Source: Candidatus Krumholzibacteriia bacterium (GTDB lineage Bacteria > Krumholzibacteriota > Krumholzibacteriia > JAJRXK01). From it: a DNA stretch of 57,209 bases. Both the position numbers and the translations under genes were made by a program. Below the pieces are notes generated by a model. It saw only the letters and a program-made list of their open reading frames with translations, was not told the origin of the DNA and made no database searches. The stretch's first letter is position 1. The number at the start of each line of letters is the position of its first letter. Shown in pieces: positions 414 through 10,481 of the stretch. The stretch lies in contig DATFKK010000050.1 in NCBI GenBank assembly GCA_035268685.1, forward strand, positions 1-57,209, given 5' to 3'.

Positions 414-3095
414 TCAGACCCAGCGCAGCGCCTTCAGGACCTGTCCGAGCAGCAGGGGCACCAGGCTGATGCCCAGGATCAGCCCCCAGGTCGACGGGTC
501 GGGCGGGACGACGTCGAGCACCCGGGCCAGCACGGGCACGTGGGCGGCGGCCAGGAGCAGCCCCACGCACAGCACGAGCGCACCCCACACCCAGCGGTTG
601 GTGGTCACGCGGTTGCGCCAGAGATCGGAGTCGGCCTCGCGCATGTTGAACACGTGCCACAGCCGCGCGAAGGCCACGGCCAGGAAGCTGACGGTGGTGG
701 CCTCGGCGGGCGGCATGTCGAGCACGGTCAGGCAGAAGGCGAAGCCGCCGAGCACGGGGAGCCCGACCACGGCGCCGAGCACCGCCAGCGAGATCCAGTG
801 CCGGCGGGTGAGGATCGGCTCGCCCGGAGCGCGGGGTGGGCCGTCCATCTCGTGGCCGCCGCCGGGGCCCACGCCGAGGGCCAGGGCGGGGAAGATGTCG
901 TTGACCGCGTTGATGTAGAGGATCTGCAGGGGAAGCAGGGGCAGCGGCGCGCCGACCAGCGCGGCCAGGAGCACCATGAGGATCTCTCCGATGTTCCCCG
1001 AGATCATGTACACCACGAAGTTGCGGACGTTGTCGAAGATGATCCGGCCCTGTTCGATGGCCATGGCCACCGTGTCGAGGCGGTCGTCCTCGAGGATGAT
1101 GTCGGCGGCATCGGCGGCGACGGGTTCACCGCGCTCTCCCATGGCGATTCCGATGTCGGCCTTCTCGAGGGCCGGAGCGTCGTTCACGCCGTCGCCGGTC
1201 ATGCCGACGACCGATCCCGCCGACTGGTGCAGGGCGATCAGGTCGAGCTTCTGCTCGGGCGAGGCGCGGTGGAAGACCGTGGCGTCGAGCAGGCGCTCGC
1301 GGGTGGAGTCGTCGGCGTCGTCGGGACCGAGGATCTCGCTACCGGCCACGTCCTCGCGCTCGTCCTCGAGCAGCTCGAGGTCGCGGGCCACGGCGACAGC
1401 CGTCTCCTGCTGATCGCCGGTGATCATCACCACGCGGATCCCGGCGTGGCGGGCGGTCTCGATCGGTGCCCGCACCTCGTCGCGCACGGGGTCGAGCAGT
1501 CCGACCAGTCCGATCAGATCGAGATCGCGGTACACGTCGTCGGTGTCGGGATCGTCGAGATCGCGCCGGGCCAGGGCCAGGACGCGGCGGCCCTGCGAGG
1601 CCAGGCGGTGGTTCTCGTCGCGCCACCACTCGCGCGCCTCGTCGTCGAGTTCGCGGGAACCCTCGGCGGTCACCACGCGGGAGCACACCTCGAGCACCGC
1701 CTCGGGGGCGCCCTTGACGGCCGCGAAGTGAGCCTCGCCGGCGCGGTGGACGGTCGCCATCATCTTGATCGACGGATCGAAGGCGTGCTCGCGGACCTCT
1801 TCGTTCTCGGCGAGCAGGTCGTCCCGGGTGAGGCCGGCCTTGGCGCCGAGGACGAGAAGGGCGACCTCGGTCGGATCGCCCGTCGCCTCGCCGTCGTCGC
1901 CCAGGCTGGCATTCGTGCACAGCGTGCCCACGCGCAGGGCCTCGCGCAGCCGGTCGTCGTCGGGTTCGATCTCGTCGCCGTCGACGCGGAACTCCCCGCG
2001 GGTCGACAGACCGGTTCCGCCGATCTCGACGTGGCGGTCGTCGAGGCGCAGGTCGGTGGCGGTCATCAGGTTCTCAGTGAGCGTGCCCGTCTTGTCGGTG
2101 AGCAGCACGTTGGTCGAGCCCAGCGTCTGCACGGCTGACAGGCGGCGCACCAGGGCGTGGCGCTCGGCCATGCGATGCATGCCGCGGGCCAGGGCCAGGG
2201 TGGCCACGATCGGCAGACCCTCGGGGACGGCGGCCACGAAGAGGGCGACCGCGGTCTCGATCATGAACACCAGTTCCTTGCCGGCGAGCAGCCCGGCGCC
2301 GCCGGCGATCACCACCACGGCCACGATGCCCTGGACCAGGCGCGAGGCCAGCGCGTCCAGACGCTGGCTCAAGGGGTCCTCTTCGCTCTCGGCCTCCTTC
2401 ACCAGCGAGGTCACGCCGCCGATCTCGGTCTGCATGCCGGTGGCCACGGCCACGCCGCGCCCGGATCCCTGCGTGATCGCGGTGCCCTTGTAGAGCATGC
2501 AGCTGCGTTCGGACAGCGGGGTCTCGGGCTCGACCGCATCGCGGTGCTTGCCCACGGGGACCGATTCGCCGGTGAGCGCGGACTCGTCGACCTGCAGGTT
2601 GTTCGCCTCGACCAGCCGGATGTCGGCGGTGACCACGTCGCCGGCCTCGACCAGCACGACGTCGCCGGGGACCAGGTCCTCGGCCTCGATCTCGTTCTGG
2701 TCGCCCTCGCGCAGCACGGTGGCGAAACGACGGTCGAGTTCCTGCAGCGCTTCCATCGAACGCAACGCCCGCAGCTCGGTGAGGAAGCCGATGCCGGCGT
2801 TGATCAGCATGGCCACGGCGATGGCCGCCGCGTCGATGGCGTTGCCGAACGCGGCCGACAGGACGACGGCGGCGAACAGCACGAGCATGATCAGGCTGCG
2901 GAACTGACGGACGAGGATCCCGAGGGTGCTCTCGTGCTCGACGTCGTGCAGCTGGTTCGGGCCGTGCTCCCGACGGCGTTCCTCGACGGCACGCGCGTCG
3001 AGCCCCTGCTCGGAGTCGACGTCGAAGGACGCGAGGACGTCGTCGACGTCCCTCTGCCAGGGAGGGGCGGCGGTGCGCTCGGCGGTGGTGTCCAT
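414..3095 (-). CDS. P2-type cation-transporting ATPase (Ca2+-ATPase-like)
   Basis: An 893-residue inner-membrane pump expected to export Ca2+ or Mn2+ at the cost of ATP. Visible in order: N-terminal cation-ATPase domain ('RREHGPNQL'), TM1-2, actuator domain with TGES, TM4 'PEGLP', phosphorylation motif DKTGTLT, 'MITGDQ', hinge TGDGVNDAPALEKADIG, and a C-terminal membrane block. TM5 keeps 'SGNIGE' and TM6 reads 'NAVND', so the Asn/Glu/Asn/Asp calcium ligands of SERCA-type pumps are mostly kept, with Thr replaced by Asn. The reading frame is open upstream to 4100, but that part is antisense to the next gene. The ATG at 3095 begins MDTTAERTAAP, the usual family N-terminus. Confidence 0.92.
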   Translation of the reverse strand: MDTTAERTAAPPWQRDVDDVLASFDVDSEQGLDARAVEERRREHGPNQLHDVEHESTLGILVRQFRSLIMLVLFAAVVLSAAFGNAIDAAAIAVAMLINAGIGFLTELRALRSMEALQELDRRFATVLREGDQNEIEAEDLVPGDVVLVEAGDVVTADIRLVEANNLQVDESALTGESVPVGKHRDAVEPETPLSERSCMLYKGTAITQGSGRGVAVATGMQTEIGGVTSLVKEAESEEDPLSQRLDALASRLVQGIVAVVVIAGGAGLLAGKELVFMIETAVALFVAAVPEGLPIVATLALARGMHRMAERHALVRRLSAVQTLGSTNVLLTDKTGTLTENLMTATDLRLDDRHVEIGGTGLSTRGEFRVDGDEIEPDDDRLREALRVGTLCTNASLGDDGEATGDPTEVALLVLGAKAGLTRDDLLAENEEVREHAFDPSIKMMATVHRAGEAHFAAVKGAPEAVLEVCSRVVTAEGSRELDDEAREWWRDENHRLASQGRRVLALARRDLDDPDTDDVYRDLDLIGLVGLLDPVRDEVRAPIETARHAGIRVVMITGDQQETAVAVARDLELLEDEREDVAGSEILGPDDADDSTRERLLDATVFHRASPEQKLDLIALHQSAGSVVGMTGDGVNDAPALEKADIGIAMGERGEPVAADAADIILEDDRLDTVAMAIEQGRIIFDNVRNFVVYMISGNIGEILMVLLAALVGAPLPLLPLQILYINAVNDIFPALALGVGPGGGHEMDGPPRAPGEPILTRRHWISLAVLGAVVGLPVLGGFAFCLTVLDMPPAEATTVSFLAVAFARLWHVFNMREADSDLWRNRVTTNRWVWGALVLCVGLLLAAAHVPVLARVLDVVPPDPSTWGLILGISLVPLLLGQVLKALRWV

Positions 3096-3296
3096 GGGAC
3101 AGGACGGTCGCAGGCACCGCACCCGACCGCGACCGGGGAGCGCCCGACCCGAGGGCGGGTCGTCGCACGACGGGCCCGGGTGTCGCCTCCGGACCGGCTC
3201 CTCGGGAGATCCCCCCTCGGACTTCCCGGTGTCGCGGGGCCATCCTGGGACTCCACCCCAGACCGGCCCGTCTCCGGGCCGAAACGGACCGAGACC

Positions 3297-4691
3297 GTGG
3301 ACCTGCGTTCGTACTACGGCGATCCCCATGTGCGCCGGCGCATGCGGGAGTTCCTGGGTGGTCCCTCCGACGGCGAGGCGACCTGCGCGTACCTGTGCCG
3401 TTGCGACAGCGCCGACGGCGGCGTGCACCGGCACGGGTCGGAGCGGCTCGACGCGTTCCTCGAGGCGGGATGGGAGGTCGGCCGGTCGCTGTGGGACCAC
3501 GAGGGGCTGATCGCGCACCTCGACATCGAGTACGTGAACTACGACTATCCCGGTGAGGCCATCAAGGACCCGCAGCGCGCGTTCCGGATCCAGCAGCCCC
3601 TGGTGGATGCCATCGAAGAGGTGCTGGCCGACTACGGCGTCTCCGCTCTGCACCTGCTCACCGGCCGCGGACACCACTTCGTGTGGCGCATCCCGTACGG
3701 CACGCCGGCGGCCTCCTCGCTCGTCGCCGTGGGCCGGATGCCGCGCCACATGGCCCTGACGAATGCGACGATCCGCTCGCCGCGGGGGGACCAACTCCCG
3801 GTGGAGGCGTGCCGGGGTCACGCCGGGCTGGGGCTGGTCATGGAGCGTCTTTCGCATCGCTTCGTGGAGAAGGCGGCGCCGAAGTGCGAGATCCCCGTCG
3901 AGTTGACCGACGTCCGGGTGGGTCCCGGAGAGCGGGGACGCGAAGGGCTGTCGATCGATCTCTCCGAGTACGGCGATCCGGTGCACACGCGCATGATCCG
4001 CCTGCCGTTCTCGGCCTACCTCAAGCCCTGGCTGAAGCCGGGGTTGTTCTCGCCCGATCAACACGCCGAACTGCCCCTGCTCTTCGCCGTACCCCAGCAC
4101 GAGTTCGACACGCGGGCGGCGATCGACGTCATGCGGGATCCCGAGCGGGCCCGGGACCTGGCGCGGCGGGTGTCGGCCCGCATTCCCGACGGATCCGACG
4201 GAACCCGTCGACTGATCGAGGACTACCGCGACTCACCGCTGGCCCGGTTCCACGACTGGTACTACGACCACCAGCCCGAGGCGCCGGAGCGCTGGGCCGA
4301 GACCTACGACACGCTGGACCTCGACCGATTGCCACCCTGTGTGGCCGAATCGGTCCGGAGGCCGAACGACGTTCTTCTGCAACCGGCGGGGATCCGTCGC
4401 CTGGTGGCCACCCTGTGGGCCGACGGCTGGCATCCCCGCGACGTGGCCGGACTGATCCGCTCGAAGTACGAGCGCGACCACGGATGGGGCGGCCGCTGGT
4501 ACTACTACGACGCCGCGACTCGTGCCGACTTCTACACCCGGCTCTTCGCGAGCTGGATCGCCGTCGGCAACGACGAACTCGTCGACTACAACTGCCAGTC
4601 GGAGAAGGAGAAGGGCCTGTGCGCGCGGCCCTTCGGGGATTGCGACCTCACCGACTGGCGACGGCGCGCGCTGGAGAGGAGATGGACATGA
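3297..4691 (+). CDS. Archaeo-eukaryotic primase (AEP)-like protein
   Basis: 464 residues, not a well-known gene. Three signatures of the AEP polymerase/primase fold appear in order: an acidic pair in 'HLDIEY' (D76, E78), 'TGRGHHFVW' near 122-130 (family form SGGRGxHhW), and 'SIDLSEY' (D221) followed by 'MIRLPFSAY' (compare 'RLPGSLH' of archaeal-type primases). Cysteines cluster at the N-terminus (CAYLCRC) and C-terminus (three Cys in the last 35 residues), so a metal or Fe-S site is possible. Start taken at GTG 3297; ATG 3342 is an alternative. The stop overlaps the next start (ATGA), so translation is coupled to the TIM-barrel gene. The biochemical role is inferred only from motifs. Confidence 0.6.
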   Translation: MDLRSYYGDPHVRRRMREFLGGPSDGEATCAYLCRCDSADGGVHRHGSERLDAFLEAGWEVGRSLWDHEGLIAHLDIEYVNYDYPGEAIKDPQRAFRIQQPLVDAIEEVLADYGVSALHLLTGRGHHFVWRIPYGTPAASSLVAVGRMPRHMALTNATIRSPRGDQLPVEACRGHAGLGLVMERLSHRFVEKAAPKCEIPVELTDVRVGPGERGREGLSIDLSEYGDPVHTRMIRLPFSAYLKPWLKPGLFSPDQHAELPLLFAVPQHEFDTRAAIDVMRDPERARDLARRVSARIPDGSDGTRRLIEDYRDSPLARFHDWYYDHQPEAPERWAETYDTLDLDRLPPCVAESVRRPNDVLLQPAGIRRLVATLWADGWHPRDVAGLIRSKYERDHGWGGRWYYYDAATRADFYTRLFASWIAVGNDELVDYNCQSEKEKGLCARPFGDCDLTDWRRRALERRWT

Positions 4692-5584
4692 GCGACTGGC
4701 CGGTGGGTCTGTCGACGGGCTGCTTCTACGACCGGAGCATCTTCGACGTCCTCGAGCCCATCTACCACGGTGGATTCTCCATGCTGGAGATCTGTTCCGC
4801 CGAGAAGCACTTCGACTACCACGACCGCGACGCGCTCGAGTCCCTGGTGCGCAGACTCCGCGACCTGGATCTGGAGGCCTACTCCTTCCACGCGCCCTAC
4901 GGACGGGACATCGACATCACGTCGCTCGACGACGAGCGGCGAGCCTACTCGCGTGAGGAGATCCTGCGATCGGCCGAGGCGGCCGCGCAGCTGAACGTGC
5001 GGTACTTCGTGATCCACCCCGGGCCGGAGATGTCCGAGGAGCCCCCGGCCGAGGAACGCCTGCACCGTCTGCGGAACGCGGCCTCGGTGCTCGACGTGGT
5101 GTCGCAGCGCTGCGCGCAGCTCGGGATCGGCTTCTGTCTCGAGAACATGTTGCCGCACCTGTTGTTCGGCAACGCCAGCGACATGCTGTGGATCCTGGGC
5201 GACATCCGGCGGGTCGAGGTCGGCGTGTGCCTCGACACCGGCCACGCGCACCTCGCGCGCGACATCACCGAGATCGTGCGCAAGTTCGCCGGGCACCTCC
5301 GCATGCTGCACGTCCACGACAACCGCGGCGACTACGACGACCACCTGCCGCCGGGCGAGGGCGAGATCGACTGGTTGCGTCTGGTGGGCGAGCTGCGGAG
5401 GATCCGCTTCGCGGGCGGGCTGGTGCTCGAGCTGTCCGGCGACCTCGACCTCGAACCCGACGAGATGCTCGCGCGTGCTCGCCACGCCCGGTGGTTCCTG
5501 CGCGACCTGTCGCGTCGGGTCGCGCTCTTCGGCACGACCGGCCAGGGTCCGCTGCAGAGCATGGACATCGAGGAGAAGGCCTGA
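4688..5584 (+). CDS. TIM-barrel sugar-phosphate isomerase / endonuclease IV-like metalloenzyme
   Basis: 298 residues of the xylose-isomerase-like TIM-barrel superfamily (COG1082 / AP endonuclease 2). Putative metal ligands sit on successive strands: H68 (SFHAPYG), H110 (VIHPGP), E152 (CLENM), D183 and H186 (CLDTGHAH), H208/H210 and D211 (LHVHDN), then 'DDHLPPGEGEIDW' with H219 and E224. The last motif is typical of sugar-phosphate isomerases/epimerases, but endonuclease IV shares the same fold and ligand order. ATG 4688 is chosen over ATG 4682 because it has the better spacing from GGAG. It overlaps the stop of the primase-like gene by four bases, suggesting a shared function. Confidence 0.8.
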   Translation: MSDWPVGLSTGCFYDRSIFDVLEPIYHGGFSMLEICSAEKHFDYHDRDALESLVRRLRDLDLEAYSFHAPYGRDIDITSLDDERRAYSREEILRSAEAAAQLNVRYFVIHPGPEMSEEPPAEERLHRLRNAASVLDVVSQRCAQLGIGFCLENMLPHLLFGNASDMLWILGDIRRVEVGVCLDTGHAHLARDITEIVRKFAGHLRMLHVHDNRGDYDDHLPPGEGEIDWLRLVGELRRIRFAGGLVLELSGDLDLEPDEMLARARHARWFLRDLSRRVALFGTTGQGPLQSMDIEEKA

Positions 5585-5597
5585 TCGGCGGGTGCGA

Positions 5598-7844
5598 TCA
5601 GCGGCTCAGGATCGCCTTCTGGACCCGACTGCGGCCGTCGGCCTGCAGCCGCACGAAGTACACGCCACTGCCCAGACGACGTCGGCGGTCGTCGCGGCCG
5701 GACCAGTGCACCGTGTGGGTTCCGGCCACGACCGATCCTTCGTGCAGGCGGGCGACCTCGCGCCCGGCGAGGTCGTACACGGCCAACCGCACCTGCGTCG
5801 TCTCGCTCAGCGTGTAGCGGATCGTCGTCGAGCCGTCGAAGGGATTGGGGCGCAGGGGCCGCAGGTGGAAGCCCGTCTCGGGATCGCCGGTCGGCTCGTC
5901 CACACCCGTGGCTCGCGTGACCTCGTAGATCCGCACGTCGTGGGCGTCGAGGTCGAGGCCGGCCAGGTCGAAGGACGCGTCGATGACCGTGTCGACGTCC
6001 GGACCGGTGCCCAGGAGATCGCGCAGGGCCACGTCTCCGGCCGCCCACCGGTCGCTGGTGCCGTCCAGCGTGACTCCACTGCGTGCGGTGTCGCCCACGT
6101 TGATCACGCAGAGCACCGTCTGCGCCTCGTAGCGGCGCAGGTAGGCCAGCACCGCCGGATCCCCCGTGGCGAGCGGCAGGTACTCTCCACGCCGCAGGGC
6201 CGGCGTGGCGTTGCGCACGCCCACGAGGTCGCGGTACCAGCTCCACAGCGAATTCGGGGCCTGCCGCAGGTCGGCGACGTTGAAGTCCGCGGCGTTCGGG
6301 CCGATCTCGTTCCAAGGAACGCCGGTGGTGAAGCCGGCGTTCGGACCGCCGGTCCACTGCATCGGACGCCGGATCTCGGGATCGGGCTTGGTGCCGAGCA
6401 TGCCCACTTCCTCGCCGTAGTAGAGGAAGGGCACCCCGGGCTGCGTGAGGTAGATGCCCGCGGCCACCTTCATGCGGTCGACGTCCTCGCCGACCACGTT
6501 CATCACACGGTCCTGGTCGTGGTTGGTGAGGAAGGTGGCGTACTGCAGGTAGGGGTAGAGTCCGTAGACCTGGTCCGCCTTGTAGGCCAGGCCCTGCGCG
6601 TCGCCGCTGTTCACCGCTCCGAGCATGGCGCTGGCCAGCTCGAACTCGAAGCAGAAGTCCAGGCGGTCCTCGATCACGTACTGGCGTACGGTGGAGGAGT
6701 TGGTCCAGGCCTCGCCCACGGACATCGCCTCGGGATCCACCGACTTCACGTGCAGGTTGAAGTCGCGCCAGAAGTCGAAGGTCTCCGGCGTGTTCTGCAG
6801 CTGCCCGTCGTTCTCGTCGATGTACAGGACCGCGTCGAGCCGGAAGCCGTCGATGCCGATCGTGTCGAGCCACCACGCGGCCGTGTCGAACATCGCGGTG
6901 CGCACCGCCGGCTCGTCGTAGTTGAGGTCGGGCATGCCGCTCCAGAACAGCCCGTAGTAGTAGTACCCCGAGGCATCGCGATGCCACACCGGCTGACCCC
7001 ACGGTCCGGTCTGGCCGGGATCCGTCGGCGACCACACGAAATGGTCGCGGTAGGTCGGGTTCCCCTGCCGTGCGGCGACGAACCACGGGTGCTGTGTCGA
7101 CGCGTGGTTCATGACGTAGTCGATGATCACGCGGATCCCGCGGGCGTGGGCGGCGTCGAGGAAGGTGCGGAAGTCGTCGAGCGTGCCGTAGTCCGGGTTG
7201 ATCGAGCGGTAGTCGATCGTGTCGTAGCCGTGATAGGTCGGCGACTCGTGGATCGGCATCAGCCAGATCCCCGTCACGCCCAGGTCGTCGTCGGTGCTCG
7301 GGTCGCCGTCGTTCAGGTAGTCGAGCTTGTCGGTCAGGCCCTGGAAGTCTCCGATGCCGTCGCCGTCGCTGTCGTGGAAGCTGCGCACGAAGATCTCGTA
7401 GAAGACCGTGTCGTTCCACCACGACAGCTCGCCCACGCCGGCGTCGGGCGCGCGGTCGCCGTACCACACGAGGATCTCGTCGTCGCTCGACCGGACCGTG
7501 TAGCGACGGTTGGGTCCGCCGCCCGGGAACTCCTCGCGGCCGTCCCACTCGCCGTTCAGGCGGAACTTGAACTCGATGGTCTCGCCCGGGGTGAAGCCGT
7601 CGACGGTGACCTCGTGGATCGAGTCTCCGTCGGCGTCCGACAGGACGATCAGCTCTTCGGTACCCCAGCCGTTGAAGGGTCCGGCGAGATCGACGAACTC
7701 GGTGGTGGGATCGAAGTTCCCGAGTTCGATCTGGTGGGACATGCGCACGCGGAAGTCGATCGACACCGCGTGCGCCGCCGTGGGCACGACGACGGCGGTG
7801 AGCAGGCAGAGGAACGCCGAGAAACGAGCCACGGCTCCGGACAC
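5598..7844 (-). CDS. Secreted GH13 alpha-amylase-family enzyme with FlgD-like C-terminal domain
   Basis: 748 residues with a signal peptide (cleavage near A26). An E-set starch-binding-like domain (about 27-128, 'LAGPFNGWG') precedes a GH13 catalytic barrel. Conserved GH13 regions: DYVMNH (242-247), FRLDAV with nucleophile D337, GEAW with acid E378, and NHD (441-443). The last roughly 85 residues ('NPFDGSTTIRYTL' to 'VQKAILSR') form the FlgD/T9SS-like Ig domain, also seen at the ends of the proteins at 8769-10481 and 37826-40063. Probable role: hydrolysis of alpha-glucans outside the cell or at the surface. It converges with the TIM-barrel gene, 13 bases away. Confidence 0.9.
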   Translation of the reverse strand: MSGAVARFSAFLCLLTAVVVPTAAHAVSIDFRVRMSHQIELGNFDPTTEFVDLAGPFNGWGTEELIVLSDADGDSIHEVTVDGFTPGETIEFKFRLNGEWDGREEFPGGGPNRRYTVRSSDDEILVWYGDRAPDAGVGELSWWNDTVFYEIFVRSFHDSDGDGIGDFQGLTDKLDYLNDGDPSTDDDLGVTGIWLMPIHESPTYHGYDTIDYRSINPDYGTLDDFRTFLDAAHARGIRVIIDYVMNHASTQHPWFVAARQGNPTYRDHFVWSPTDPGQTGPWGQPVWHRDASGYYYYGLFWSGMPDLNYDEPAVRTAMFDTAAWWLDTIGIDGFRLDAVLYIDENDGQLQNTPETFDFWRDFNLHVKSVDPEAMSVGEAWTNSSTVRQYVIEDRLDFCFEFELASAMLGAVNSGDAQGLAYKADQVYGLYPYLQYATFLTNHDQDRVMNVVGEDVDRMKVAAGIYLTQPGVPFLYYGEEVGMLGTKPDPEIRRPMQWTGGPNAGFTTGVPWNEIGPNAADFNVADLRQAPNSLWSWYRDLVGVRNATPALRRGEYLPLATGDPAVLAYLRRYEAQTVLCVINVGDTARSGVTLDGTSDRWAAGDVALRDLLGTGPDVDTVIDASFDLAGLDLDAHDVRIYEVTRATGVDEPTGDPETGFHLRPLRPNPFDGSTTIRYTLSETTQVRLAVYDLAGREVARLHEGSVVAGTHTVHWSGRDDRRRRLGSGVYFVRLQADGRSRVQKAILSR

Positions 7845-7937: not shown

Positions 7938-8543
7938 TCACTGCTCCCCGGCATCCTCCCGGAGTTCCTCGCGACCGGGGCCACCGACACGGGCGACCAC
8001 CTGCACGGTGCTCGCCTGGGGTCCCTGCTCGCCCATCTCCTCGACGTAGCGCACGCCGGTTCCCACCACGAGATCCTCGAGGTCCTCGTTCACGACCGCG
8101 TTGCGATGGAAGTAGACGCTTTCGCCTTCCGGCGTCTTGAGGAAGCCGTGATCCTCGTCGGGGAACAACTGGTCGACGATGCCGACCATGTCCTGCGAGG
8201 GGTGCGCCTTCACGTCGCGGCGCTGCTTCGCCACGAGTTGCTCCAACTGGCTTCGCATGGCGTCGAAGGTGCGATGTATCACCGTCTCGAGGGTGTCGTT
8301 CACCGTGCCCTGGCTCGGCTCGCGGACGGCGACCAGTTCGTGGCCGCGGGGAACCTGCACCGCCACCCGCACGCGGTAGGAACTCCCGGTCGACGGGTTG
8401 CCCTGCGGCCGTTCCACCGCGACGCGGCAACTGGTGAGGTAGTCGCACACGCGGTGCAGCTTCTCGACCTTGTCGCGTACGAGGTCGTCGAGGGCCTCGG
8501 TCTTCTTCACGCCGCGGAAGGTCAGTTCGAGTGGGACCTGCAC
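7938..8543 (-). CDS. HPF/RaiA-type ribosome-associated protein fused to a cold-shock domain
   Basis: 201 residues. Residues 1 to about 110 match the sigma54-modulation/hibernation-promoting-factor fold ('VPLELTFRGVKKTEALDDLV', 'CRVAVERP', 'YRVRVAVQVP'). Residues of about 130-190 look like an S1-type cold-shock nucleic-acid-binding domain ('VGIVDQLF', 'HGFLKT', 'SVYFHRNAV'). It probably binds ribosomes and RNA in stationary phase or cold. GTG 8543 is chosen because AGGAGGTGG lies six bases upstream. The gene is divergent from the secreted-protein gene at 8769. Confidence 0.85.
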   Translation of the reverse strand: MQVPLELTFRGVKKTEALDDLVRDKVEKLHRVCDYLTSCRVAVERPQGNPSTGSSYRVRVAVQVPRGHELVAVREPSQGTVNDTLETVIHRTFDAMRSQLEQLVAKQRRDVKAHPSQDMVGIVDQLFPDEDHGFLKTPEGESVYFHRNAVVNEDLEDLVVGTGVRYVEEMGEQGPQASTVQVVARVGGPGREELREDAGEQ

Positions 8544-8687
8544 GGTTCCACCTCCTGGGTCGGGTCGGATCCCGTTCACGGGTCGACGTGTGTCGTCCCG
8601 ATACTCTAGCCGCGTGCGATCACGACGAGATGGGGAGCGTCCCCAACGCTCTCCCCGGGCCGGACAGAAGTGGTGCCGCTGTACGAT

Positions 8688-8716
8688 GGGACACGGATGC
8701 GGTTCCGGGCTAGAAT
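8688..8716 (+). promoter_or_regulatory. Sigma70-like promoter upstream of the FlgD-tailed secreted protein
   Basis: GGGACA (8688-8693), a 17-base spacer and TAGAAT (8711-8716), about 50 bases before the ATG at 8769. Confidence 0.55.
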
Positions 8717-8768
8717 CCCCGCCGTGGGTCCCTCTCGGCCTGGACAAATGATTCCTGGGAGGGAAGTC

Positions 8769-10481
8769 ATGGCTCATCGCGCCCTGACCGCATCGCTGAC
8801 GATCGTCTGGATCCTCGGTGCGGTCGTTCCGGCGACGGCGGCGGCCGTCGTCTATTCCACCGATTTCGAGGACTGCACCGTCGGGGATCTCACTGGCCAC
8901 CCCGGCGCGGCCGATCAGGACTGGTGGTACCGGTCGCTGAGCGGCGATGCGACCGCCCAGATCCTCGGCAGTGGCGGTGACCCCGGCCGTTGCCTCGAAC
9001 TCTACGCTCCGATCACGAGCGCCTCCGGCGTGCAGACCTACGGCTACCGCGAATTCGACGAGTGGGTGGACCTGACGCAGGTGGCGATCGTGCGATTGTC
9101 CTTCGACGTCTTCTGCCGCTCGAGCGCCGTCACGACCCAGAACCGCTACCGCGCCGACGTCGAAGCCGTCGGCGGACCGCACCCGGGCTTTCTCATCGGT
9201 GGCGTCCGTTTGGTGTCGGGCCATCAGGCCCCCCGCGACGTCACCGGCCTCGACGTCCAGATCTTCCATTCGCCCGTGGGCTCGGGGGGACTTCCGGTTC
9301 CCCTGACCGTCGGCCAGGACCTGGCCTGGGACACGTGGCACCGCGTGGAACTGGTGATCGACCACGCCGGTGACGAGTACGTGTCGATCACCGTGAACGG
9401 CGAGACCCAGGACATCGCGGGATACCGGCCGCCGCGCTCCTGGTACGAAGGGGAGTACCTGCGCGGCCAACGCCTGGAGAAGATCCAGGGGGTGATCTAC
9501 GCGGGCGAGTGGGGGGATCCGGTCCAGGAGACGGACGACTGGGTCCGCTACGACGACCTCGACGTCCAGGTCGAGTACTCCGAGGCTCCGCGCCTGCTGT
9601 CGGTGACCGACGTCGGCAACGACCAGGGCCGTCAGGTACGCCTGGAGTGGCTGCGTTCGGAGTACGACGGTCCGACCGCGCCCACGATCCTCTCCTACGA
9701 CGTCTACCGTCGCGAGGACAGCGGGGCCAAGCTCGCCGGCTGGGACTACGTGGCCAGCGTTCCCGCCGCCGGCGACGACTTCTATCAGTGCGTCGTGCCC
9801 ACGCTGGGTGATTCCACGTCGGCCGGCATCTGGTGGTCGAGCTTCCTGCTGCGGGCGATGACCGACGACCCGCTGGTGTACTTCCAGTCCGCACCGGACA
9901 GCGGCTACTCGGTCGACGATCTCGTTCCCGAACCGACTTCGGGCTTCGCCGTGTCGTACACGACCGACGGCGTGGGCCTGAGCTGGGCACCGAGCACGGC
10001 TCCGGACTTCCTGGTGTTCCGCCTGTACCGGACGCGCGCGGCGAAGGCACAGGAGCTGGTGTGCGAGACGACGGCGACGTCGTGGTACGACGACACGGGT
10101 ACGTGGGGGGACACCTACCGACTGGCGGTGGTGGACGACGCGGGCAACGAGTGCGAGGCGGCGGCGCCGACCACGACGACCGACGCGCCGGTGCCGTTGC
10201 GTTCGTTGGTGCTGCACGCGCCGGTGCCCAATCCCTTCAACCCGGCGACCGAACTGTCGTTCGAGCTGCCGGTCGACGGCACGCCGGTCCGACTGGACGT
10301 GTACGACACCGCGGGGCGTCGAGTTCGCACGCTGGTGGACGACGTGCTCGACCACGGTCGGCACGAGGTGGTGTGGCGCGGTGTCGACGACGCCGGACGC
10401 GCAGCGGCCTCGGGCACCTACCACGCGCGGCTGAGCACGCCCGACGCCACGCGGGTGGTCAAGCTGACGCTGGTCCGCTGA
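8769..10481 (+). CDS. Secreted protein with FlgD-like C-terminal domain, function unknown
   Basis: 570 residues. An N-terminal signal peptide ('SLTIVWILGAVVPATAAA') precedes a region beginning 'YSTDFEDCTVGDLTG', which resembles concanavalin/laminin-G-like jelly rolls of surface proteins. A fibronectin-III-like segment ('LLSVTDVGNDQGRQVRLEW') follows. The last roughly 80 residues ('PVPNPFNPATELSFELP' to 'VVKLTLVR') are the FlgD-like Ig domain, likely for sorting or anchoring. ATG 8769 has GGGAGGG at suitable distance; the longer open frame from 8670 lacks a signal at its start. No catalytic motif was recognised, so it may be an adhesin or carbohydrate-binding protein. Confidence 0.8.
   Translation: MAHRALTASLTIVWILGAVVPATAAAVVYSTDFEDCTVGDLTGHPGAADQDWWYRSLSGDATAQILGSGGDPGRCLELYAPITSASGVQTYGYREFDEWVDLTQVAIVRLSFDVFCRSSAVTTQNRYRADVEAVGGPHPGFLIGGVRLVSGHQAPRDVTGLDVQIFHSPVGSGGLPVPLTVGQDLAWDTWHRVELVIDHAGDEYVSITVNGETQDIAGYRPPRSWYEGEYLRGQRLEKIQGVIYAGEWGDPVQETDDWVRYDDLDVQVEYSEAPRLLSVTDVGNDQGRQVRLEWLRSEYDGPTAPTILSYDVYRREDSGAKLAGWDYVASVPAAGDDFYQCVVPTLGDSTSAGIWWSSFLLRAMTDDPLVYFQSAPDSGYSVDDLVPEPTSGFAVSYTTDGVGLSWAPSTAPDFLVFRLYRTRAAKAQELVCETTATSWYDDTGTWGDTYRLAVVDDAGNECEAAAPTTTTDAPVPLRSLVLHAPVPNPFNPATELSFELPVDGTPVRLDVYDTAGRRVRTLVDDVLDHGRHEVVWRGVDDAGRAAASGTYHARLSTPDATRVVKLTLVR

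Follow-up and report, generated by a model that had tools for sequence, protein, structure and literature searches.

Few chromosomal archaeo-eukaryotic primases (AEPs) of bacteria have a known cellular role (LigD, Prim-PolC and CAPP). Mycobacterial Prim-PolC, the repair-type AEP of the Prim-PolC/LigC apparatus, acts in base excision repair by filling short gaps, and was found to be most efficient in vitro when endonuclease IV processed the ends (PMC5663958). The gene of Prim-PolC accompanies that of a ligase and, in some cases, that of a glycosylase, and the endonuclease IV gene lies elsewhere. The polymerase domain of LigD (PolDom), which belongs to bacterial non-homologous end joining, has the same AEP fold. 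In PolpTN2, from the Thermococcus plasmid pTN2, and the PrimPol-PV1 supergroup, a helical domain bearing four conserved Cys residues comes after the AEP (PMC3973330, PMC5862659). These proteins are mobile-element replicases, many of them fused to helicases or PriCT. Endonuclease IV (Nfo), a PF01261 TIM barrel, has nine metal-ligand positions, CbiR is a phosphodiesterase of cobamide remodelling (PMC7733943) and MJ1311 (3wqo) has been deposited as an uncharacterised protein.

The locus described here, consisting of two adjacent genes (CDS1 and CDS2, Table 1), lies in a window of 57,209 nucleotides, the whole stretch of DNA analysed, from a Candidatus Krumholzibacteriia bacterium. CDS1 has only fold and motifs in common with the known AEPs. 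Unlike Prim-PolC, it is coupled directly to an endonuclease IV-like TIM barrel and carries an extra C-terminal Cys domain; unlike LigD, it has no linked ligase or Ku that could be seen; and unlike the PolpTN2/PrimPol-PV1 replicases, whose AEP and four-Cys helical layout it resembles, it is chromosomal and has a TIM-barrel partner. CDS2 shares with Nfo the PF01261 barrel and all nine metal-ligand positions, but not the long loop between the ligands corresponding to H208 and D217. No description of the CDS1–CDS2 pairing was found in the open PMC literature. A single copy of the pair is present in the host genome, which amounts to 4.59 Mb in 202 contigs at 99.3% completeness. The start of CDS2 is the ATG within the ATGA overlap, with a second in-frame ATG at 4682, and a search for sigma-70 promoter or intrinsic terminator consensus sequences around the pair found none.

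Table 1. Features of the CDS1–CDS2 locus and its surroundings (positions in the window).
Feature	Position	Strand	Description and basis
CDS1	3297..4691	+	GTG start, 464 aa; predicted AEP (Prim-Pol) fold protein; open frame, relatives, AlphaFold2 and Foldseek
CDS1 motif residues			Motif I D76xE78; motif II G125-H126-H127; motif III D221; basic/Pro signature R232xxR235xP237...K243
CDS1 C-terminal helical region with Cys quartet C348/C433/C442/C449	4338..4643	+	PriL Fe-S-like by architecture
CDS2	4688..5584	+	PF01261 TIM barrel, Pfam E 7e-36; AlphaFold2 pLDDT 93.2
CDS2 ligand positions			H68, H110, E152, D183, H186, H208, D217, H219, E248
ATGA stop/start overlap of CDS1 and CDS2	4688..4691	+	Sequence; same overlap in homologous pairs
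P-type cation ATPase	414..3155	-	Divergent, upstream of CDS1; Pfam E1-E2_ATPase, Cation_ATPase_N/C
Alpha-amylase	5598-7844	-	Convergent, downstream of CDS2
S30AE (HPF/RaiA ribosome-hibernation) domain, then cold-shock domain	7941-8600	-	One protein near the module

The preliminary description had recognised three AEP motifs in order in CDS1, and this was borne out by the comparison of 67 aligned relatives (34–48% identity). The motifs are LDIEY (D76 and E78), GRGHHFVW (G123, G125, H126 and H127) and IDLSEY...RLPFSAY (D221, R232, R235, P237 and K243). All relatives (67/67) keep D76, E78, G123, G125, D221, R232, P237 and K243, and H127 and R235 are each kept in 66/67; such near-invariance is not due to chance. 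The published AEP signature (motif I hhhDhD/E, motif II sxH, motif III hD/E; PMC10345425) is represented by D76/E78 (67/67), G125 (67/67), H127 (66/67) and D221 (67/67). The AlphaFold2 model of CDS1, built from the 67-row alignment (pLDDT 93.5, pTM 0.93), has an AEP catalytic fold, the fold defined by an N-terminal alpha/beta part and an RRM-like palm. When the model was searched against the PDB with Foldseek, the best match was the LigD polymerase domain (2r9l, E = 4e-4, probability 1.00), followed by Prim-PolC from M. smegmatis (6sa0, E = 6e-4, probability 1.00) and, more weakly, by CAPP; these matches had probabilities of 0.99–1.00, with moderate TM-scores of about 0.5 by target length. The model also matched phage and viral primases in BFVD. 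No meaningful match of CDS1 was obtained with the Pfam, NCBIfam, PHROGs or PADLOC models. HMMER searches of PDB sequences with CDS1 alone and with the 67-member profile gave nothing relevant; the fold was visible through structure only. Similarly, HHalign found no profile similarity between CDS1 and a LigD_pol alignment of the carrier genomes (probability 0.07%), and neither HMM nor HHalign comparison gave a significant link to PolpTN2. Since no sequence profile links it to LigD_pol or PolpTN2, CDS1 is classed as a predicted AEP on the strength of its modelled fold and its motifs and is given a separate family. Membership of the LigD polymerase or Prim-PolC families was rejected on the same HHalign value and on the lack of an NCBIfam match. 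A LigD polymerase domain occurs in the host as well (G000:C102:7383-8123), which gives it at least two different AEPs.

The Cys clusters that had been noted at both ends of CDS1 fared unequally. The N-terminal cluster (C30, C34 and C36) was not conserved among the 67 relatives, whereas the C-terminal quartet (C348, C433, C442 and C449) behaved as a block. At least C348 and C442 were kept in 54/67 relatives, C433 as well in 52, and all four were absent in 13/67; all four alignment columns were filled in 42/67, the fourth column being disturbed in the alignment. The members without the quartet are spread over at least four tree branches (L012, L018, L044 and a Spartobacteria/Chthoniobacter clade). 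Conservation and loss as a block fit the prediction for a dispensable metal or Fe-S site. Pfam scans of the CDS1 consensus and of single members gave nothing convincing; PF04104 (PriL) was touched in 3/67 members with a best E of 0.0097, about what 67 scans would give by chance. Kinship of this domain with the PriL Fe-S domain is only suggestive and may serve as a lead.

For CDS2, a complete divalent-metal site in a TIM barrel with the AP endonuclease fold had been proposed. The metal site was confirmed: alignment with E. coli Nfo showed 9/9 endonuclease IV metal-ligand positions, all of them invariant in a 35-row alignment. In the comparison alignment of Nfo and four characterised E. coli epimerases or isomerases (UlaE, FrlC, Hyi and YcjR), the equivalents of H68 and H110 were missing from all four; beyond these two, other extra-metal ligands are missing from each, or H186 in the case of FrlC. 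The fold claim was supported, with the qualification that the nearest overall folds are MJ1311 and ketose epimerases, not endonuclease IV. MJ1311 is the closest solved structure, and the same ligand motifs align in it; ketose epimerases come next and dominate the Foldseek list. CDS2 is not endonuclease IV itself, as it scored 31.7 bits against TIGR00587 (cut-off 129.65) and its loop between H208 and D217 is short (GDYDDHLPP), compared with the long GSRVDRHE-type loop of Nfo. CbiR (NF041277) was the best NCBIfam match and the closest characterised family, but the score of 61.7 bits was below the cut-off of 105 and no cobamide gene context was seen among the recurrent neighbours, and this assignment was rejected. 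A sugar (ketose) epimerase or isomerase with a single-metal E/D/H/E site was rejected as well, all the extra His and Asp ligands being present. Orphan TIM barrels of Verrucomicrobiota (L111–L114, and L134–L137), with 189–197 bits to the CDS2 profile and no CDS1 nearby, were found to carry 9/9 endonuclease IV ligand positions. The nine-ligand set therefore points to phosphoester chemistry and is no proof of a DNA substrate. In the host genome, CDS2 was the sole PF01261 protein found.

The scan of the whole collection gave 80 loci homologous to CDS1, of which 78 could be tested for linkage, their contigs extending beyond CDS1. The expected linkage was seen in all of them, CDS2 following CDS1 on the same strand in 78/78 loci, with just a CDS2 fragment detected at L009. 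The ATGA overlap of the preliminary description was likewise upheld, the overlap being exactly -4 nt in 43/73 measurable pairs and the spacing negative in 61/73; it is predicted to couple the translation of the two genes. CDS1 was split over frames or truncated, with CDS2 detected, at L074, L079, L080, L081 and L082, either through sequencing errors or through decay of CDS1. At L042, loss of the CDS1 stop fuses CDS1 and CDS2 into one ORF of 775 aa, although an error of assembly might, in theory, account for this single MAG instance. The pairwise identities of CDS1 and CDS2 were found to correlate (r = 0.69), and 0/10,000 permutations gave a value as high. In 241 Verrucomicrobiota genomes, full-strength CDS1 occurred in 7 genomes (8 copies), and all 8 TIM barrels above 400 bits adjoin CDS1. 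These barrels carry the endonuclease IV ligand set that is absent from UlaE, FrlC, Hyi and YcjR of E. coli, and a clustering with sugar isomerases in genomes lacking the primase-like gene was not seen. The next TIM barrels of the same genomes scored below 200 bits to the CDS2 profile, and no CDS1 homologue was found near the five best of them. Two complete pairs were present in genome G199 (contigs C8 and C16). The coupling is near-obligate, and the pairing of an AEP-like CDS1 with an endonuclease IV-fold CDS2 is supported by the models and alignments, with DNA as the putative substrate. CDS1 also has a more distant sister group (E about 1e-38), detected at L102:6148-7512 (+), L102:7843-9156 (-) and L103:154-1443 (-), with the motifs DxE, GGH, D..S and RSIRSPFSLHKK. 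Its members lack both the Cys quartet and the TIM-barrel partner, and two copies adjoin in one genome; the AEP part can thus occur alone.

Linkage of CDS1 and CDS2 extends across at least seven phyla, the carriers besides the host belonging to Verrucomicrobiota, Planctomycetota, Fibrobacterota, Omnitrophota, Myxococcota, Thermodesulfobacteriota and Gemmatimonadota. Among the carrier genomes, true Nfo was also found in 8/36 (only carriers were counted) and LigD in 13/37; a replacement of Nfo by CDS2 was weighed in the light of the Nfo count and not adopted. The module is patchy, a sample of 98 genomes around the host having yielded a single further match, and phyla are intermixed in the tree (e.g., at L042). 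No homologues were found in the phage, plasmid and viral-contig collections searched, and no third gene was found to be universal beside the pair among the loci. Stress genes make up most of the recurrent neighbours to which a name could be given, which include HSP20, universal stress protein (Usp), cation P-type ATPase, glycogen synthase and sensor kinases. Compared with expectations from family gene numbers in 37 carrier genomes, the module had HSP20 at a distance of 10 kb or less in 10 genomes against an expected 0.5, cation P-type ATPase in 7 against 0.24 and Usp in 5 against 0.81, figures to be read with the families having been chosen after they were seen and with related genomes not being independent. 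The ATPase accompanies the module in the host, in Omnitrophota and in several verrucomicrobial lineages, and hsp20 lies immediately upstream on the same strand in several Spartobacteria. By way of analogy, Usp, Hsp20 and P-type ATPase are also markers of the mycobacterial dormancy regulon. Neither a ligase nor a glycosylase, Ku or helicase was seen to be conserved among these recurrent neighbours.

With about an even chance of being correct, the reading put forward here is that CDS1 and CDS2 form a two-component DNA excision and gap-repair module. CDS2, through its three-metal site of the endonuclease IV type, would hydrolyse a phosphoester, whether at a site of damage or base loss or where the 3' end is blocked, and so yield a short gap with a usable 3'-OH. 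CDS1, whose C-terminal Cys domain may resemble the PriL Fe-S domain, would then bind the gap and add one or a few nucleotides, and a host ligase would close the nick. The two proteins may be in physical contact, and the module would be used in stress or dormancy. This repair reading is supported by the best PDB matches of CDS1, both of them repair AEPs (LigD PolDom and Prim-PolC), by the nine endonuclease IV ligands of CDS2 that true epimerases lack, by the linkage in 78/78 loci together with the -4 nt overlap, the fusion, the co-divergence and the stress-gene enrichment, and by the precedent of Prim-PolC with endonuclease IV, CDS2 being the only PF01261 protein of the host. It is weakened by the lack of a conserved ligase, glycosylase, Ku or helicase among the recurrent neighbours, by the absence of the Nfo loop from CDS2, its scores below the cut-offs and its nearest folds (MJ1311 and ketose epimerases), by the nine-ligand set of the orphan barrels and the true Nfo of 8/36 carriers, and by the HHalign result for LigD_pol and the post hoc choice of neighbour families in related genomes. 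Only tentatively can the claim be extended to a new chromosomal AEP family with a PriL-like Fe-S domain and a three-metal TIM-barrel nuclease as obligate partner, which would make up a self-contained incise-and-fill base-excision unit in stress or dormancy islands of at least seven phyla.

Four other explanations were weighed against the repair reading. It is unlikely, on present evidence, that the pair serves nucleotide signalling or metabolism, with CDS1 making a short oligonucleotide, a dinucleotide or a modified nucleotide and CDS2 hydrolysing the product or a nucleotide-bearing cofactor in the manner of CbiR. The best NCBIfam match of CDS2 is indeed this non-DNA phosphodiesterase (61.7 bits, cut-off 105), no DNA-repair partner is conserved near the module, and a coupled synthase and hydrolase would account for the obligate pairing and the fusion; nevertheless, CDS1 is structurally closest to repair polymerases that depend on a template, and the recurrent neighbours showed neither an effector nor a cobamide gene. 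Repriming or damage tolerance, in which CDS1 would be a fused PriS–PriL-like primase that primes past lesions and CDS2 would process the primer or 3' ends, appears rather improbable. The PriS-like motif III region (D..S..R.IR.PFS...K), clearest as RSIRSPFSLHKK in the divergent relatives, and the possible resemblance of the block-conserved Cys quartet to the PriL domain of the PolpTN2 PriS–PriL fusion (PMC3973330) suggested such a role. However, the pair persists on at least four branches where the quartet was lost, the HMM and HHalign comparisons gave no link to PolpTN2, PF04104 was merely touched (3/67, best E 0.0097) and the best PDB matches of CDS1 are gap-filling polymerases, not PriS.

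Less likely than either of these, and very improbable in itself, is an anti-phage defence or mobile-element module. Its rarity and patchiness (one match in the 98-genome sample, and 7 strong carriers out of 241 Verrucomicrobiota) and the intermixed phyla of the tree, as at L042, are what such a module might show, but it has no homologue in the phages, plasmids and viral contigs searched and no meaningful PADLOC or PHROGs match, and the recurrent neighbours checked serve housekeeping and stress functions, without an integrase or a defence family among them. That CDS2 is an ordinary sugar isomerase or epimerase and CDS1 an unrelated neighbour, as the predominance of ketose epimerases in the Foldseek list of CDS2 would suggest, is largely refuted and can be given hardly any weight, since all nine endonuclease IV ligands are invariant in CDS2, the extra-metal ones being missing from UlaE, FrlC, Hyi and YcjR, and since the pairing is near-obligate, with one fusion.

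CDS1 would add a distinct family to the few chromosomal bacterial AEPs with a known cellular role. The family is invisible to Pfam, NCBIfam, PHROGs and PADLOC, and its partner was fixed through the near-obligate linkage and the fusion. If the repair reading is true, base-excision incision and gap filling are packaged in one module. A hypothesis is also supplied for CDS2-type proteins, for which annotation as sugar phosphate isomerases is a likely error, and it is directly testable, both proteins being confidently modelled and of tractable size. Beside the module, the alpha-amylase carries a C-terminal sorting tail of the FlgD-Ig/Por type, and an FlgD_ig tail is also present on another protein of the window (8670-10481, + strand).
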